A stretch of DNA of 21,604 bases from a virus, in the IMG/VR virus record IMGVR_UViG_3300030382_002122, positions 1-21,604 of that record, one strand, 5' to 3'. Below the pieces are notes generated by a model. It was not told where the DNA came from. It did no database searches and saw nothing but the letters and a program-made list of their open reading frames with translations. Positions 1,300-21,191 of the stretch are shown here, piece after piece (within the stretch, counting starts at the first letter, position 1; each line of letters begins with the position of its first letter). The translations under genes and the position numbers were made by a program.

Positions 1300-1334
1300 A
1301 AAAAAAAGGGGATGTAAACCACAACACCCCCTTT
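1300..1334 (-). terminator. Intrinsic terminator upstream of the capsid gene
   Basis: A stem of AAAGGGG with CCCCTTT (7 bp) continues through one mismatch into TGT/ACA (3 bp), closed by an 8-nt loop (stem arms 1305-1315 and 1324-1334). On the minus strand it runs straight into eight T residues (1307 to 1300), the standard intrinsic terminator layout. It would end transcripts coming from the tail, protease and 55-aa genes. The other strand has only three T after the stem, so it is not a plus-strand terminator. Confidence 0.85.
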
Positions 1335-1377
1335 AAAAAACACTATGAAAACAATTATTTGGTTTGTAGTTCTGGCA

Positions 1378-4132: not shown

Positions 4133-4826
4133 TTTTTCATGTTTTGTAGTCTAACCAAATCTGATTTATATGCCAACCATGTCAAAACCCTGTTAATGTT
4201 CATTCGTGTTATTTTGTTTGTCTTTAATATATCCCCATCTGTTAGGATATAGATTGAACTGAACCAACCCCACTTTTTTGAATGTCCTGCCTCTGTGCTT
4301 GTGCCACTTCCTGTGGAGTCAAAGAGTTCAGGGTATCTGTCACTAATTGACTTCCTAACGTCAAAAAAAAACCGATTGCACCAAGAGCAACCCCTAAAGG
4401 CATTTGGGATAAATCCCCTGACCCTTTATACTTTTCTATCTTATAACGCCCTCCTGATTGTTTCTTTGTGATTGGTCTGAATAAGATACTCATCAACTTG
4501 TGGTAGTTTTCCTTTTCCATGTACTCATCCAAATCAACTAACTCACCAAAAGTAATATTATCAAAGTTAGGTATAAAACCATACTCAACACTATCCATTT
4601 TAAACCTGTTTATAAATTTAGGCTGTTGCTCTAGTAATCCCCTTACTGTATTTGTTAATAAATCTACATCATAGTTTTTTACATTATTAACACTCTTCAA
4701 TCCATAGACAATACTCAAAACCCTCTGAACGTAAAACTGTGGTTCTGCCTTTTCATCAATAGCAACTATCTTCTGCCATTGTTCTAAAGTAAGGTCATTT
4801 AGATTTTCAGGTAAGTTTACTGTCAT
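4129..4826 (-). CDS. Tail assembly chaperone, -1 frameshift fusion product (GT-like)
   Basis: Ribosomes that slip back one base on the T9 run at 4363-4371 leave the 194-aa frame and read a frame that is open for 78 further codons, ending at the TGA at 4129-4131. The predicted fusion is about 232 aa: 154 residues of the shared N-terminus plus an extension. The extension contains FDVRKSISDRYPELFD and then an aromatic block, KKWGWFSSIYILTDGD, followed by RVLTWLAYKSDL. That WGW-type block looks like a genuine domain rather than random reading, and it resembles C-terminal extensions I know from other Bacteroidota phages. Paired short and frameshifted proteins just before the tape measure are the hallmark of the lambda G/GT type of chaperone. 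The extension fills the gap between the chaperone stop and the 46-aa gene. Confidence 0.8.
4242..4826 (-). CDS. Tail assembly chaperone, short form (G-like)
   Basis: The unshifted product is 194 aa. It begins MTVNLPENLNDLTLEQWQK, is helical and acidic through about residue 140, and ends with a Gln/Ser-rich tail after the slippery site (codons GGT TTT TTT TTG, residues 152-155). Short-form chaperones coat the tape measure during tail assembly; the tape measure gene lies about 250 bp downstream. The start overlaps the end of the 931-aa tail gene by four bases (ATGA). I do not see a known enzymatic motif. The assignment depends on position, size and the frameshift layout rather than on sequence identity alone. 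Confidence 0.75.
   Translation of the reverse strand: MTVNLPENLNDLTLEQWQKIVAIDEKAEPQFYVQRVLSIVYGLKSVNNVKNYDVDLLTNTVRGLLEQQPKFINRFKMDSVEYGFIPNFDNITFGELVDLDEYMEKENYHKLMSILFRPITKKQSGGRYKIEKYKGSGDLSQMPLGVALGAIGFFLTLGSQLVTDTLNSLTPQEVAQAQRQDIQKSGVGSVQSIS
4363..4371 (-). other. Programmed -1 frameshift slippery site (T9)
   Basis: On the minus strand nine consecutive T residues are read in frame as GGT TTT TTT TTG, which gives canonical heptamers T TTT TTT and T TTT TTG. The -1 frame is then open to 4129. I could not evaluate a downstream stimulatory structure by eye. Confidence 0.8.
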
Positions 4827-8913: not shown

Positions 8914-9428
8914 TATCTATTAAAATATGTTTCTATATCTGTTATCATTGCATCAGGTATTTTCTTATCTAGTTTTTTAAACTCTGCATCGAATGGATCA
9001 GTAAAGAAATTAGTAGCTTTTATGCCGTGCCTGAATATTGCCCTGTTTAATAAGAATGCAAGAGAGTTCATATTTCTTGGTGTCATCTCCATAAACCTGC
9101 CCCTCTCATCTCTTGGTTTTATCTTCTTGGTCTTTATCCAATTTCGGATAGCTGTAACGGGTGCGTACTTGCCAGGCTTTCTCCCTGAATCTACATACAG
9201 TCCATACTCTGCCATTTGAAATATAAGGTTAGTCTTTTCTGCACTTGCTTTTATAGACCTTGATAAATTACCTGTGTTATCTATCTTGCTAGTCAGCCTC
9301 CTGCCTGACTGTGTTGTTTTAGTGGTTTTCTCAGCTAGGTTTTTCCTTGACTGCCTTACAACATTCTTACCCATTTGGTTCAATGCCAAAAAAGTCTTTG
9401 CGTATAGTACATTAGCAGATAGTGCCAT
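8913..9428 (-). CDS. HK97 gp10-like head-tail/tail completion protein
   Basis: This 171-aa protein has the layout of the HK97 gp10 family. A basic helical N-terminus contains QMGKNVVRQSRKNLAEKT, a TGNLSRSIKAS stretch follows, and a conserved core reads YGLYVDSGRKPGK. A basic segment with KKIKPRDERGRF comes next, then a helical C-terminus (FFTDPFDAEFKK). Family members act in joining or completing the tail after packaging. It overlaps the preceding 147-aa gene by 17 nt. The pair 9412-9855 and 8913-9428 fits the usual neck/tail-completion pair, although here it follows the terminase directly instead of capsid genes. Confidence 0.75.
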   Translation of the reverse strand: MALSANVLYAKTFLALNQMGKNVVRQSRKNLAEKTTKTTQSGRRLTSKIDNTGNLSRSIKASAEKTNLIFQMAEYGLYVDSGRKPGKYAPVTAIRNWIKTKKIKPRDERGRFMEMTPRNMNSLAFLLNRAIFRHGIKATNFFTDPFDAEFKKLDKKIPDAMITDIETYFNR

Positions 9429-9855
9429 CGGTCGGTATTGTTAAAGTTATATCTAATTCCCACCCCGTTAACACGTTCTTAAACCTGTGCATAAAGGCAG
9501 TTAGTGTACTCTCACCCTCTACCTTGTAGTTGCCCGATGCCCCCCTTTCGTAAAACTCCAACACCTGACTTAACCGATTATGTACGTCATTAAGTACATC
9601 CTGTATATTGTCATTGGTAAAAAAGCTGTCGTTCTCATCTTTGTTAAAGTCTACCAAATCCATTCCTGATATTGAAAAGGTGTACTGTGTAACATTGCCC
9701 TGCTTTAATGTGGACATAGGTACTATGTGAGCATAGGGGAAGATGGTCTGCCTTTCAAGGTCAACCTTAAAGTTATCACCTAATGTAACAACTCTAAATC
9801 CTTTGTCTATTAGTACATCGTAAAGGCTCTGTGTAATTTTATAAAAACCGTTCAT
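9412..9855 (-). CDS. Putative tail terminator/completion protein
   Basis: A 147-aa protein beginning MNGFYKITQSLYDVLIDKGF. The pattern is an N-terminal helix, then beta strands (RVVTLGDNFKVDL, YTFSISGMDLVD), then a helix (NIQDVLNDVHNRLSQVLEFYERG) and final strands. This is the usual plan of small tail-terminator or completion proteins, and it stands directly before a gp10-like gene, as in many siphoviruses. The family cannot be fixed by eye, so the role is inferred from size, pattern and context. Its ATG follows the repeated 14-bp motif by two bases. Confidence 0.5.
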   Translation of the reverse strand: MNGFYKITQSLYDVLIDKGFRVVTLGDNFKVDLERQTIFPYAHIVPMSTLKQGNVTQYTFSISGMDLVDFNKDENDSFFTNDNIQDVLNDVHNRLSQVLEFYERGASGNYKVEGESTLTAFMHRFKNVLTGWELDITLTIPTDGTIC

Positions 9856-13237: not shown

Positions 13238-13460
13238 TCTTTTTTATATAGTCCTTATTCAGATTCTTTATAATCAAATCCCATGTATCAAAATCAATAC
13301 AGCAGTTTATGGTAGGTCTGTACTTAGGCTTTCCAAATACAGACAGGTGCAGTTTGTGTGCTATTATTAAATCCTGTTTTAGTATTGTCTGTTTGGTTTC
13401 TAATGCACTCTTAAACCTAGTACGCATTTCTAACCATATTTGTTTTTCAGCTTTTGTCAT
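13221..13460 (-). CDS. 79-aa protein of unknown function
   Basis: Begins MTKAEKQIWLEMRTRFKSAL and is helical and basic in the first half; the second half has NCCIDFDTWDLIIKNLNKDY. No motif or membrane segment is recognised. Its start overlaps the end of the preceding 118-aa gene by four bases and its stop lies within the next small ORF, so it is firmly inside the operon chain. Confidence 0.6.
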   Translation of the reverse strand: MTKAEKQIWLEMRTRFKSALETKQTILKQDLIIAHKLHLSVFGKPKYRPTINCCIDFDTWDLIIKNLNKDYIKKNDNSR

Positions 13461-13813: not shown

Positions 13814-14372
13814 AAAATATTTCTTTTAAGGTTTCACGTATGTTTTTAACTCCATAGAAAATAGTCGTTACACTTATGTTTGTTTTCCTGCTTAACTCCC
13901 TCATGGATATGTTGTCCTGCATATAAGCTGTGTACAGTTTTTGGCAAAAGGGGTCTAATGTTTTTAAATGTTCTTTTATCTCTGCTTTCTTTACATCATA
14001 TTCAGGGTTGGTGTCATCTGTTAAAAAATCATCTTTTATAGCTGATGGTATGATTCTATTTTTTCCAGAATACAGCACTCCGTCGGATCTTTCCCGTGAA
14101 ATCATCTCGTCATAATCATCAATTATTCTGATATTATTTTTTTTACTCCTGATTTTGTTTAGTGTAATATTCCTTACTGCATTAAATAAATAGACTGTGT
14201 TAATCTTCCCTTTGTAGGTCAGTCGGTTAAGGTTGCCCTCTTTCTTCTCTATCTCTGTCAGCTTGACAAAAAGGTCTTGAACTATATCCTGAGCATCTTC
14301 ATAGTCTACCCCATGATACTTAGCTATTTTTAGTAAATCCTGATACATATTAGTAACATCTTTTACTTTCAT
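13800..14372 (-). CDS. Phage-encoded RNA polymerase sigma factor (sigma-70 family, ECF-like)
   Basis: This 190-aa protein has region 2 at about 24-80 (YEDAQDIVQDLFVKLTEIE, then TVYLFNAVRNITLNKIRSKK), a charged linker, and region 4 at about 137-185 (LDPFCQKLYTAYMQDNISMRELSRKTNISVTTIF…), a helix-turn-helix for the -35 element. Length and the lack of regions 1 and 3 fit an ECF-type factor. It probably redirects host polymerase to phage promoters, most likely the structural genes downstream (inference). A Bacteroidota promoter box ends five bases before its ATG, which predicts a leaderless mRNA. The ribbon-helix-helix gene overlaps its end by 14 nt. Confidence 0.8.
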   Translation of the reverse strand: MKVKDVTNMYQDLLKIAKYHGVDYEDAQDIVQDLFVKLTEIEKKEGNLNRLTYKGKINTVYLFNAVRNITLNKIRSKKNNIRIIDDYDEMISRERSDGVLYSGKNRIIPSAIKDDFLTDDTNPEYDVKKAEIKEHLKTLDPFCQKLYTAYMQDNISMRELSRKTNISVTTIFYGVKNIRETLKEIFYESN

Positions 14373-14377
14373 GTTTG

Positions 14378-14407
14378 CAAATGTAGTTACTTTTTCTCAC
14401 CTGTCAA
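14378..14407 (-). promoter_or_regulatory. Bacteroidota-type promoter for the sigma factor gene
   Basis: On the minus strand TTGACA (14407-14402) is followed, 19 nt after its TTG, by TACATTTG (14385-14378), matching the TTG…TAnnTTTG consensus. The -7 box ends five bases before the sigma factor ATG (14372), so the predicted transcription start falls on or next to the start codon. Confidence 0.65.
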
Positions 14408-14518
14408 CCTACCCCTCTTGACATTCATATATCCTTTTATCTTATCTGACCTTATTTTCTTGTCAGTAAAAAAATGTATTATGTTCTGAATCTCTTGTAT
14501 TGTCAAATTATAAGTCAT
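14387..14518 (-). CDS. Small 43-aa basic protein
   Basis: A 43-codon ORF beginning MTYNLTIQEIQNIIHFF and ending KRGRLTGEKK, lysine-rich, helical in the first half. Its ATG overlaps the end of the HNH gene (TATGACTTATAA region), and it covers most of the gap before the sigma factor gene. Its 3' end overlaps the -33 part of the sigma promoter. A short DNA-binding protein is possible from composition. Coding status rests on the overlap and gap-filling only. Confidence 0.4.
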   Translation of the reverse strand: MTYNLTIQEIQNIIHFFTDKKIRSDKIKGYMNVKRGRLTGEKK

Positions 14519-18339: not shown

Positions 18340-19319
18340 TTCTCAAATTTTAGTTCGTGTTGTTCGTTTATAAATCTGATTTTCACTTCCATTAGGTTTT
18401 TAATTGCTTGTTTATAATAACTATCTTTTAATTCTATTCCGATTGATTTACGCCCCAAGCTTACGGGGCTGTATACTTCACTACCAACGCCCATAAATGG
18501 AGTTAAAACAACCTCACCAGGGTTTGAATATAGTTCTACTATTCTATCAATAACATCTAATTGCAACGGGTGTACATGCTTTTCATCGTCCTCATCTTTG
18601 CTCTCTTTGAACTTTAAAACTTCATCAACTCTTATATCATCCCATACCGAGGAGGCGTACCGTTGCCAAATAATATGAGATAGTTTATTTGTTTTGGGGT
18701 CTTTATGGTCTTTGTATTTCTTCTGTAAATATTCTAATGAACCGTATTTATTAACCATTGCTGGAAGTATTGGAGTTTCACCAGCATAATGAGTTAATCC
18801 TACTGGGTGAGTAACTGGAATTTTATTTTCACCTCTTTTTTTGAATATTAAAAGATAATCAGGATTTGCGGTAAAACATTCCGTAGAATCTTCAACTATT
18901 AATTTATGCATTAATGATCGAACCATTGTTCTTAATCTTACTTTTAACGGTTCTTTCCAAATGGTTATTTTATTACGATAATTAAAACCATATTTCTTAT
19001 GAAGTGTTATTATTTCGTGTGGAAAATCCCACATAGAACCGTCTTTATTCATTATATCCGTACAATGAACCGCCGTTATTCTACCATCTTTTGTAACGCG
19101 TGAAATTTCAGCAATTAAATATTCGTATTGTTGTAAAAACTGTTCTTTAGTTTCACAATTTGAAAAGTCATTATCACTAGAACTGTAATTATACAATCCT
19201 GCAAACGGTGGTGAATATACCGATAAATCAACACTTTCCTTTTCTAGTGTTGGAAGTACATACATACAATCACTTTCATAGATTGCATACTGGTCTGTAA
19301 TTTTTTGATCTTTTACCAT
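18333..19319 (-). CDS. Beta-class DNA amino-methyltransferase (N4-cytosine or N6-adenine)
   Basis: In this 328-aa enzyme the catalytic motif IV, SPPF (36-39), comes first and the cofactor motif I, FMGVGSE (275-281), near the end, followed by GRKSIGIE. That order defines the beta class of amino-methyltransferases, which methylate the exocyclic N4 of cytosine or N6 of adenine. The SPP(F/Y/W) form is more common for N4-cytosine enzymes, so that is slightly favoured. The region between about 110 and 250 would hold the target recognition domain. It overlaps the upstream helicase gene by seven bases, a pairing seen in many phages, possibly for self-modification. No restriction endonuclease gene is visible beside it. 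Confidence 0.85.
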   Translation of the reverse strand: MVKDQKITDQYAIYESDCMYVLPTLEKESVDLSVYSPPFAGLYNYSSSDNDFSNCETKEQFLQQYEYLIAEISRVTKDGRITAVHCTDIMNKDGSMWDFPHEIITLHKKYGFNYRNKITIWKEPLKVRLRTMVRSLMHKLIVEDSTECFTANPDYLLIFKKRGENKIPVTHPVGLTHYAGETPILPAMVNKYGSLEYLQKKYKDHKDPKTNKLSHIIWQRYASSVWDDIRVDEVLKFKESKDEDDEKHVHPLQLDVIDRIVELYSNPGEVVLTPFMGVGSEVYSPVSLGRKSIGIELKDSYYKQAIKNLMEVKIRFINEQHELKFEKC

Positions 19320-20671
19320 ATTGGAAGTTTTATGTTTTGATTAAATTCTGATTTCTTTTCTTTATATCCATTTAAGGAAACATTCAACTTATTGAATAAT
19401 TGATTTGATTTTTCAGCTTTTGCTAACAACCCGTCTAATACTCTTTTTTGACCATCAGAATAAACCAAATCAACCTCAACTGGTTCTGTTTGTCCGAATC
19501 TCCAAAACCTGCGAATTGATTGATAATACTGTTCAAAACTAAACGTAGGAAAATACGTAGTATGGTTACAATGTTGCCAATTAAGACCAAAGGCTGTCAT
19601 TTTCGGCTTTGTTATTAGTTTCTTTATTTCACCATTATAAAAAGCTAACAAAATTTCCTCTTTTTTATCCAGGTTCATCGATCCTTTTATCTCGTATGCT
19701 TCTGAATCCATTTGGTTTAACAGTTCGCTTTCTCGGTTATAATTACACCAATAAACAGAAGTTTTATGTTTACTTGCTAATTCAAAAGCACGTTCACATC
19801 TAACATCAATAGTCAGTCTTTGTTCTTCTTTTATTTCTGGCAACCTTTTGGCTATCATTGTGAACATTTGTATTTGTCCGTTAATAATCATATTTTCTTT
19901 ATTCTCAACAGCGTGATAATTTGTAATGAGTTCAGGTAAAACAAATCTAGTATCATCAAATCCTAAGTCGCTAGGTTTACGCATTGAAATACTCCAACTC
20001 GAAACCCACTCAAAGAATGATTCTTTTGCATGTCCTTTTAATATCCATTTAGTACCTATGTTCATTGGAGAAATAGTATCTTCATTATTAGTAAAGAACT
20101 TTGTTAACATATCGGAATAACCCATATATCCTAACGCCTCTGAACTTGTACCTAATTCGATAAAATCGTTTGGTGAGGGGGTAGCTGTAAATAAATATCT
20201 ATACTTTACTTTCTTTAAGAACGTAGTAACTTGGGTTTTGATTGATCCTTTGAAGTTTTTTAATATCGAACTTTCATCTAATAGAACACAATCAAAATCC
20301 AGGTAATTGAATTTATCTAACCGTTCATAATTACAAACTACAATTTTAGTTTTATAATTGCCGTCTTTTGAATATTCAATATCTCCTACTCCAAACTTTT
20401 CAGCCTCACGAATAAATTGAAAAGCAACCGCCAAAGGTGTGATTATCAAAACGGGTTTATTTGTCTTTTGAATATAGTTTTTTGCTATAACTAATTCAAT
20501 AATTGTTTTACCTAATCCAGTATCTAAAAACACCGCTGCCCTACCTTTTTTAATTGCGTATTCTGAAACGTGTTTTTGAAAGTCAAATAAATAATCAGGA
20601 ATGAATGTAGGTTCTATTCCATAGTTATTACTTAATTGTGATTTTTGTATTAGAAATTTTTTATATTCCAT
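19313..20671 (-). CDS. SF2/SNF2-like DNA helicase
   Basis: This 452-aa ATPase has Walker A DTGLGKT (50-56), motif Ia-like LIITPLAVAFQF, motif II LLDESS (130-135, DESS instead of DEAH), motif III TATPSP (163-168) and a motif VI region QSIRRFWRFGQ. The last is the SNF2-type form, giving a double-stranded-DNA translocase or helicase. It is paired with a methyltransferase gene (seven-base overlap), which suggests the two act on phage DNA together, in replication or modification. It is compact, without extra accessory domains. The start is 10 bases after a terminator-like T run, so its expression may depend on readthrough of the upstream structured RNA. Confidence 0.85.
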   Translation of the reverse strand: MEYKKFLIQKSQLSNNYGIEPTFIPDYLFDFQKHVSEYAIKKGRAAVFLDTGLGKTIIELVIAKNYIQKTNKPVLIITPLAVAFQFIREAEKFGVGDIEYSKDGNYKTKIVVCNYERLDKFNYLDFDCVLLDESSILKNFKGSIKTQVTTFLKKVKYRYLFTATPSPNDFIELGTSSEALGYMGYSDMLTKFFTNNEDTISPMNIGTKWILKGHAKESFFEWVSSWSISMRKPSDLGFDDTRFVLPELITNYHAVENKENMIINGQIQMFTMIAKRLPEIKEEQRLTIDVRCERAFELASKHKTSVYWCNYNRESELLNQMDSEAYEIKGSMNLDKKEEILLAFYNGEIKKLITKPKMTAFGLNWQHCNHTTYFPTFSFEQYYQSIRRFWRFGQTEPVEVDLVYSDGQKRVLDGLLAKAEKSNQLFNKLNVSLNGYKEKKSEFNQNIKLPIW

Positions 20672-20681
20672 GTGTTTTTAT

Positions 20682-20729
20682 AAAAAAACCCATACGAGTT
20701 CGGCAATGCAGCACCTCCCCCGTATAGGT
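20682..20729 (-). terminator. Terminator-like hairpin with T7 upstream of the helicase
   Basis: The arms ACCTATACG (20729-20721) and CGTATGGGT (20696-20688) pair over nine positions, one of them G-U, around a 24-nt loop that contains GGAGG. Seven T residues (20688-20682) follow directly on the minus strand. It could end the small RNA or attenuate transcription into the helicase gene. Confidence 0.65.
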
Positions 20730-20764
20730 TCAAAGTTCTTTTATGTCGATTACTGCACTAATCA
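20682..20764 (-). ncRNA. Candidate structured small RNA or attenuator leader upstream of the helicase operon
   Basis: A TACATTTG promoter box ends at 20770, so transcription should begin near 20764. The RNA would then open with a perfect hairpin GATTA-GTGCAG-TAATC (20763-20748), pass through a short A-rich single-stranded linker, and close with the nine-pair hairpin and T7 run at 20729-20682. The first loop (GTGCAG) can pair along its whole length with CTGCAT in the second loop (20711-20706), one position being G-U, so a kissing or pseudoknot contact is possible. No convincing peptide is encoded. Total length is about 83 nt. I do not recognise a known RNA family. It may act in trans, or in cis as an attenuator for the helicase and methyltransferase genes. 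Confidence 0.55.
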
Positions 20765-20769
20765 TATTG

Positions 20770-20777
20770 CAAATGTA
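20770..20777 (-). promoter_or_regulatory. TACATTTG promoter -7 box for the small RNA
   Basis: Matches TAnnTTTG and begins immediately after the stop codon of the 137-aa gene. Its flanks (AAAGTAA before, GCAA overlapping the end) match those of the sigma factor promoter at 14378-14385. I see no TTG at the ideal upstream spacing, so it is weaker than that promoter or depends on another factor. Confidence 0.5.
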
Positions 20778-21191
20778 TTACTTTAATTTTAATAACTCAG
20801 CATCGGGCAATAAACCTTTTCCAATTGCATTGTCTTTTAACTGCTGTGTTGCATCAGTAAACCCATTTGATCTTTTAACTTTCCGTCTTAATGTATTAGC
20901 AACATCAGCCTGGTCTAATTCTGATGCAATCTTCCACCTGTCAATAGGATTGCCTTTTATCTTATTATTTTTTAGGCTTATTGTTATATGTCCCTCTCCT
21001 GCCAATTGACCCAATGCCCTATCTATTGACCTTTTAACTCTATCTTCAAGGTGCTTATGTGTATATACATTATAAGCATCACCAAACGCATATTCAGCAA
21101 TATCAGATACAGTCATATACCCCTCTGTATCACTCTTTAATGCTTTAATGATTAAGTCCTTTACTAATTCTTTTTTTTCAAATCTACTCAT
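20778..21191 (-). CDS. 137-aa winged-helix-like protein of unknown function
   Basis: Begins MSRFEKKELVKDLIIKALKS. The pattern TVSDIAEYAFGD, then LEDRVKRSIDRALGQLAGEGHITISLKNN, reads as helix, helix, recognition helix and wing, so a winged helix-turn-helix of about residues 5-85 is likely. The C-terminal part is polar (RRKVKRSNGFTDATQQLKDN). It may bind DNA and act as an early regulator or replication accessory factor, but I recognise no named family. The start overlaps the end of the preceding gene by eight bases. A TACATTTG promoter box begins one base after its stop codon. Confidence 0.6.
   Translation of the reverse strand: MSRFEKKELVKDLIIKALKSDTEGYMTVSDIAEYAFGDAYNVYTHKHLEDRVKRSIDRALGQLAGEGHITISLKNNKIKGNPIDRWKIASELDQADVANTLRRKVKRSNGFTDATQQLKDNAIGKGLLPDAELLKLK

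Follow-up and report, generated by a model that had tools for sequence, protein, structure and literature searches.

The window, that is, the whole 21,604-nt stretch of viral DNA analysed here (IMG/VR record IMGVR_UViG_3300030382_002122), contains a 106-bp gap between the ORF at 19313-20671 and the ORF at 20778-21191. The first of these ORFs is a helicase gene (Pfam DEAD/ResIII/Helicase_C; PHROG DNA helicase) and the gap carries, on the minus strand, a promoter-like box, a small hairpin, an A-rich linker and an intrinsic terminator. The gap, the box and the T-tract were read directly, and both hairpins were read directly and folded. These features are the following:

20770-20777, minus strand: -7 promoter box TACATTTG, of the Bacteroidota TAnnTTTG type
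20748-20763, minus strand: hairpin 1, GATTA-GTGCAG-TAATC (5-bp stem and 6-nt loop)
20758-20753, minus strand: loop of hairpin 1, which pairs with the terminator loop
20731-20747, minus strand: A-rich linker of 17 nt, GACATAAAAGAACTTTG
20687-20730, minus strand: terminator hairpin
20730-20719 with 20698-20687, minus strand: outer stem of the terminator, AACCTATACGGG/CTCGTATGGGTT
20718-20716 with 20701-20699, minus strand: symmetric purine internal loop GGA/GAA, between the outer and inner stems
within the terminator hairpin, minus strand: inner stem GGTG/TGCC
20711-20706, minus strand: apical kissing loop CTGCAT of the terminator
20682-20688, minus strand: T7 tract of the intrinsic terminator
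19313-20671, minus strand: helicase gene, the element being placed in its 5' leader

The helicase ATG, at 20671, lies 10 nt past the T-run. An earlier note, made from the window alone, had described on this strand a box, a 5-bp hairpin, a nine-pair hairpin and seven T in a 106-bp gap. The strand is correct and all these parts were found, either exactly where described or a few bases away. The stem has nine pairs by a strict count but 12 if the A-U pairs that close it and an additional G-U pair are counted. The GGAGG that had been viewed as exposed is not a free Shine-Dalgarno sequence; it makes up half of the purine internal loop and of the inner stem.

The predicted transcript folds into hairpin 1 and the terminator hairpin only, with a minimum free energy of -24.9 kcal/mol versus -16.4 +/- 2.8 kcal/mol for shuffled sequences (z -3.0); the terminator folded alone gives a z of -3.1. 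The six-position complementarity noticed at the outset between GTGCAG and CTGCAT is real: the contact GUGCAG/CUGCAU comprises five Watson-Crick pairs and one G-U pair and involves the entire length of both 6-nt loops. The chance of such a full pairing for two random 6-nt loops is about 0.0009. When the search is relaxed to the whole of the terminator loop, the score of the window is equalled by about 8% of unrelated loop pairs, and this contact ranks among the weakest of the family described below.

An exact-core search of IMG/VR returned only two contigs with the element, both near-identical to the window copy. In one of them (L002/L005), the promoter of the near-identical element reads TTTG-N19-TATATTTG. 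The terminator stem of L005 carries CGTGTAGGT where the window has CGTATGGGT, and every pair is kept through U-G/U-A and U-A/U-G changes. Comparison of this contig with positions 20672-20780 of the window indicates that identity extends from the promoter box across the element and the helicase, the upstream gene being unrelated. The element and the helicase therefore seem to be swapped together as one block, whose breakpoint lies at the promoter. The architecture of hairpin 1 is common to the window, L056, L249, L280 and others, and the window linker is similar to that of L249 (ACATAAAACGAACTT). In more distant copies of the same subtype (L249/L280 and L261/L390), the loop contact covaries by eye, the window copy itself having only its two near-identical relatives. 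The MAFFT alignment of this subtype was out of structural register and was excluded from the pair counts.

Relatives of the helicase were gathered from IMG/VR, genome collections and named phages, giving 217 distinct loci. These were searched with a descriptor combining a hairpin, a linker of at most 50 nt, a terminator and a loop-loop complementarity of at least 6 nt. In 33 loci, a match lies no more than 70 nt ahead of the helicase start, versus 0.13 expected from dinucleotide shuffles. Another survey ignored loop pairing and picked any TAnnTT[TA]G box followed by a hairpin and a terminator, with the start of an ORF close by. It yielded 63 candidates on the coding strand versus 3 on the opposite strand, and the loop-loop score reached at least 10 in 48 of these 63 leaders, versus 1.2 expected when loop 1 of one leader is confronted with the terminator loop of another. 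The family, for which the name kissing-loop terminator leader is used here, is defined by a promoter box, a 5' hairpin, an 8-50-nt linker and a terminator at most 70 nt from an ORF start. The window copy fulfils this architecture, being picked up by the smaller kissing-blind scan (its near-identical relative L005 by the larger one). It also fulfils the loop criterion, its two loops being complementary at 6/6 positions with one G-U. Furthermore, a covariance model built on six sequences, from which the kissing pairs were left out, recovers many other elements. Two of its matches that had been missed by the descriptor also kiss by eye, L369 (GCCTTGCA/TGCAAGGC) and L383 (TCGCAC/GTGCGA).

Three alignments, A1, A2 and A3, have 98.7%, 97.6% and 98.2% of their cells paired and contain 16, 13 and 11 double-changed pairs, respectively. 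In A1, the kissing helix accounts for 4 double-changed pairs without any one-sided change; the figures for this helix are 6/8 in A2 and 3/7 in A3. None of 500 shuffles matched the counts of any of these alignments, and pairing falls to 28-43% when the partner is shifted by 1-3 columns. As the structures were taken from members of A1-A3, the percentages of paired cells are biased upward; the double changes are free of this bias. The check named by the earlier note, that both stems and the loop-loop contact should show compensatory changes in related phages, is thus passed in three independent alignments and in the kissing-blind survey. The same note held that related phages devoid of conserved stems would refute its proposal. 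This condition is only partly fulfilled: the element is missing from a majority of the 217 helicase relatives and is unconserved in sequence, but the architecture and the pairing are kept wherever it is present.

The element of the window is a predicted RNA of about 90 bases, and its design recurs ahead of replication genes in many Bacteroidota phages, with letters that differ between copies, pairing being preserved. A nucleotide similarity search against 50,697 phage records returned only short AT-rich chance matches, because the sequence of the element is not conserved. The linker is A-rich, with a median of 18 nt, and AAAAnATT-like motifs occur in 24 of 94 linkers versus 5.1 in shuffles. 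The internal loop of the terminator is purine-rich: GGA/GAA in the window and L235 and, by eye, GGAU/UGAA in either orientation in L199/L249, L241 and L273, or AGUA/GAA, interpreted as a loop E motif, in L056, L253, L261, L390 and L399. The U-tract has a median of 6 T among the first 8 nt past the stem. In the elements that bear the box, TTG is enriched 22-26 nt upstream of it, which matches the expectation for Bacteroidota promoters. No correlation was found between linker length and helix length, and the weak rank correlation between kissing strength and terminator strength (rho 0.23, p 0.05) cannot be interpreted as a trade-off.

The cultivated phages that carry the element include Flavobacterium phages hattifnatt9-1, snusmum9-1 and 11b and Bacteroides phage B40-8. 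The complete genome of hattifnatt9-1 (MN812207) harbours three copies, whereas 11b and B40-8 (NC_011222) have one copy each:

hattifnatt9-1, 9372-9458: copy 1, before the helicase
hattifnatt9-1, 13304-13387: copy 2, before an HNH endonuclease
hattifnatt9-1, 14346-14439: copy 3, before gp044
11b, 33634-33718: single copy, 20-22 nt before the gene
B40-8, 28403-28491: single copy, 20-22 nt before the gene

The genes that follow other copies encode Lin1244-type replication initiation proteins, BT4734-like primases, Prim-Pol/DUF3987, ERF, DUF6291 and HNH proteins. Where a contig holds two copies, the loops of one never cross-pair with those of the other (0/20), which is not significant since only 5.5% is expected between contigs. 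The Bacteroidota chromosomes scanned yielded no convincing member of the family. A scan of 395 Bacteroidota genomes with covariance model R1 gave two matches, neither of which kisses according to the descriptor; one lies upstream of a hisG-like gene and the other between two housekeeping-type genes. No canonical element was found in 205 kb of chromosome.

In the Bacteroidota genome L402, the RNA-model match upstream of a hisG-like gene may simply be the usual attenuator of a his operon, having a similar stem spacing but no kissing.

The terminator of the family ends at a median of 19 nt from the next ATG (n=100), versus 74.5 nt for 163 other intergenic terminators from the same contigs, although such a short distance is partly forced in gapless phage genomes. 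In loci with the element, a TAnnTTTG box is found 85-150 nt upstream of the ATG in 26/39 cases and at 10-60 nt in 0/39. In loci devoid of the element, the box is located 15-57 nt upstream of the helicase ATG in 36/178 cases, versus 15 in a control zone. The terminator being close to the start codon and the box often being near the helicase ATG where the element is absent, the element most likely works as a 5' leader in which transcription is halted ahead of early replication genes. Most simply, it would form part of the helicase transcript, in its 5' leader.

The promoter-like box, the stems, the terminator, the loop-loop covariation, the placement between promoter and start codon and the repeated use are observed. 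In the absence of RNA data, it is only inferred that the region is transcribed, that transcription terminates there and how efficiently, that the kissing contact contributes to termination and that read-through is regulated. With these reservations, a transcription attenuator, borne by the gap in the form of a 5' leader RNA for the helicase operon, is somewhat more probable than not. According to this model, the RNA polymerase would start immediately past TACATTTG and hairpin 1 would fold at the extreme 5' end of the transcript. As the terminator emerges, its apical loop would dock on the loop of hairpin 1, forming an intramolecular kissing complex buttressed by the purine internal loop (GGA/GAA in the window; AGUA/GAA or GGAU/UGAA elsewhere). 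This contact would stabilise the terminator or speed its formation. Docking would lock it, so that most transcripts would stop as RNAs of about 85-90 nt, about 10 nt before the helicase ATG. Expression of the gene would occur when termination is bypassed by an unknown signal, for example if the loop contact is occupied or melted, or if the polymerase is modified by the phage. The same module, with its own loop sequence in each copy, is found ahead of several genes for early replication and recombination in Bacteroidota phages.

Hairpin 1 and the linker are no more complementary to the terminator arm than in shuffled sequences (4.47 versus 4.46), and therefore no built-in switch is visible. A leader-peptide attenuator of the his/trp type was rejected because leader ORFs are not enriched family-wide (9/72 versus 15.3 in shuffles). 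In the window, an ORF of 11 codons (MISAVIDIKEL, 20765-20730, minus strand) covers hairpin 1 and the linker and stops at the terminator; it appears to be accidental and not a feature of the family. In the absence of an antiterminator fold and of a conserved leader peptide, any read-through would therefore have to rely on a trans-acting factor, a competing RNA or a modified form of the polymerase. A more elaborate proposal is that the family is phage-specific, requires its in-cis kissing loop for termination and carries a different 'key' sequence in each copy. Nascent leaders would then be opened through competition for the loops, either by the short RNAs once released or by a phage factor, each early operon thus having a private timer that senses RNA concentration; this remains speculative and rather doubtful.

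The main rival of the attenuator is a free-standing small RNA gene, whose product of about 85-90 nt, compact and nuclease-resistant, would have its targets in trans, such as a host protein or, via its loops, other RNAs, the helicase being transcribed from elsewhere. This is a real possibility, albeit a distinctly less probable one. An RNA structured nearly from its first base and ending in a terminator, whose sequence drifts while its architecture stays and which lacks an alternative antiterminator fold, would suit such a role. However, the terminator is unusually near the start codon relative to other terminators, the promoter box shifts together with the element relative to the ATG, and the loops differ among copies and phages, which argues against a single conserved target in trans. 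The earlier note had left the choice between a free small RNA and an attenuator of the helicase operon. Both readings find support and are not mutually exclusive; the position favours the attenuator or leader without settling the matter.

The element could also be a plain terminator between two transcription units, that the kissing contact would merely improve or insulate, without any regulation. The hairpin and U-tract are indeed strong, but a promoter box directly upstream would be hard to understand unless the short RNA or the read-through matters, and ordinary intergenic terminators of the same contigs are farther from start codons. This explanation is thus improbable. Even less credit can be given to a translation-control leader, in which the folded RNA and the U/A-rich stretch behind it would set ribosome access to the start codon, termination being incidental. 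Translation initiation regions of Bacteroidota are A/U-rich and the T-tract is 10-20 nt from the start codon, which speaks for this hypothesis, but canonical U-tracts come right behind the hairpin (median 6 T in 8) and the start codon is not inside the structure. Lastly, chance hairpins in an AT-rich gap can practically be discarded: the loop contact of the window is modest when taken alone, but the window shares features with L005, L056 and L249, and the shuffle, cross-pairing, strand and covariation controls rule out chance for the family.

The attenuator leader favoured here does not correspond to any RNA family of Rfam 15, in agreement with the first impression that no known family was recognisable. 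Indeed, no match to the element of the window was found up to an E value of 5, 20 loci with elements gave only a tRNA match and a permissive scan of 12 loci gave only sub-threshold chance matches. No description of such a leader was found in the literature searched, although some members could already figure in a 2017 survey of 224 candidate RNAs.

The element belongs among terminator-type leaders. Like terminator-type attenuators (Bacteroid-trp leader, his/trp), it combines a promoter, a short structured leader and an intrinsic terminator right before the start codon. It differs from them by the lack of any detected leader peptide or mutually exclusive antiterminator hairpin, by its conserved intramolecular loop-loop contact and by its association with replication genes instead of biosynthesis genes. 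In lambda pR'-tR' (6S RNA) and HK022 put, a terminator lies close behind a phage promoter and a short RNA is made unless termination is overcome; the put RNA forms hairpins right behind the promoter, as in the element. This likeness is only an analogy, and the element differs by its many copies per phage and its kissing loop. Purine and lysine riboswitch aptamers also display kissing loops, purine-rich internal motifs beside the loops (loop E-like AGUA/GAA) and a terminator output. However, the phage element consists of two hairpins and an A-rich linker, without junction, conserved ligand pocket or Rfam riboswitch match, and the terminator itself bears the kissing loop. Kissing loops of 6-8 nt are likewise linked to transcriptional or replication control in ColE1 RNAI/RNAII and pT181-type antisense attenuation, but here both complementary loops belong to the same molecule, without any evident antisense RNA. 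No described attenuator is known to rely on a terminator whose loop-loop contact is intramolecular and whose loop sequences are freely exchanged.

Phages of Bacteroidota are dominant in many viromes of the gut and of aquatic habitats, and the timing of their early genes is largely unknown. The present data reveal a compact, presumably regulatory RNA, supported by covariation, between the promoter and the start codon of replication genes in several cultivated phages. If the proposed mechanism is true, it would be a natural terminator under tertiary loop-loop control with freely exchangeable loop sequences, and would provide a design rule for synthetic attenuators.

Some additional structures deserve mention. 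Another candidate element of the window (1305-1373, minus strand) was set aside as an ordinary terminator. It is a strong one (AAAGGGGGTGTTGTGGTTTACATCCCCTTT and a T-run), located in a 263-bp gap before ORF 2-1114, about 190 nt from the start of this ORF, and its weak loop complementarity with an upstream hairpin is probably due to chance. The G+C-rich relatives L152, L050, L143, L027 and L028 form a distinct subtype, with a CGCTG-loop-CAGCG hairpin and a CGCCCC...GGGGCG terminator with GGTGAAC, whose loops are again complementary. Locus L247, from Rhodobacteraceae phage LS06-2018-MD05, is A+T-rich and has a TATCTTTG box, and its assigned host may therefore be wrong. It carries two paralogous leaders, at 4547-4658 and 20519-20632, with linkers of about 48 nt; their backbones are alike but their complementary loops differ, TCGAAAC/GTTTCGA and TTGAAAAGC/GCTTTTCAA.
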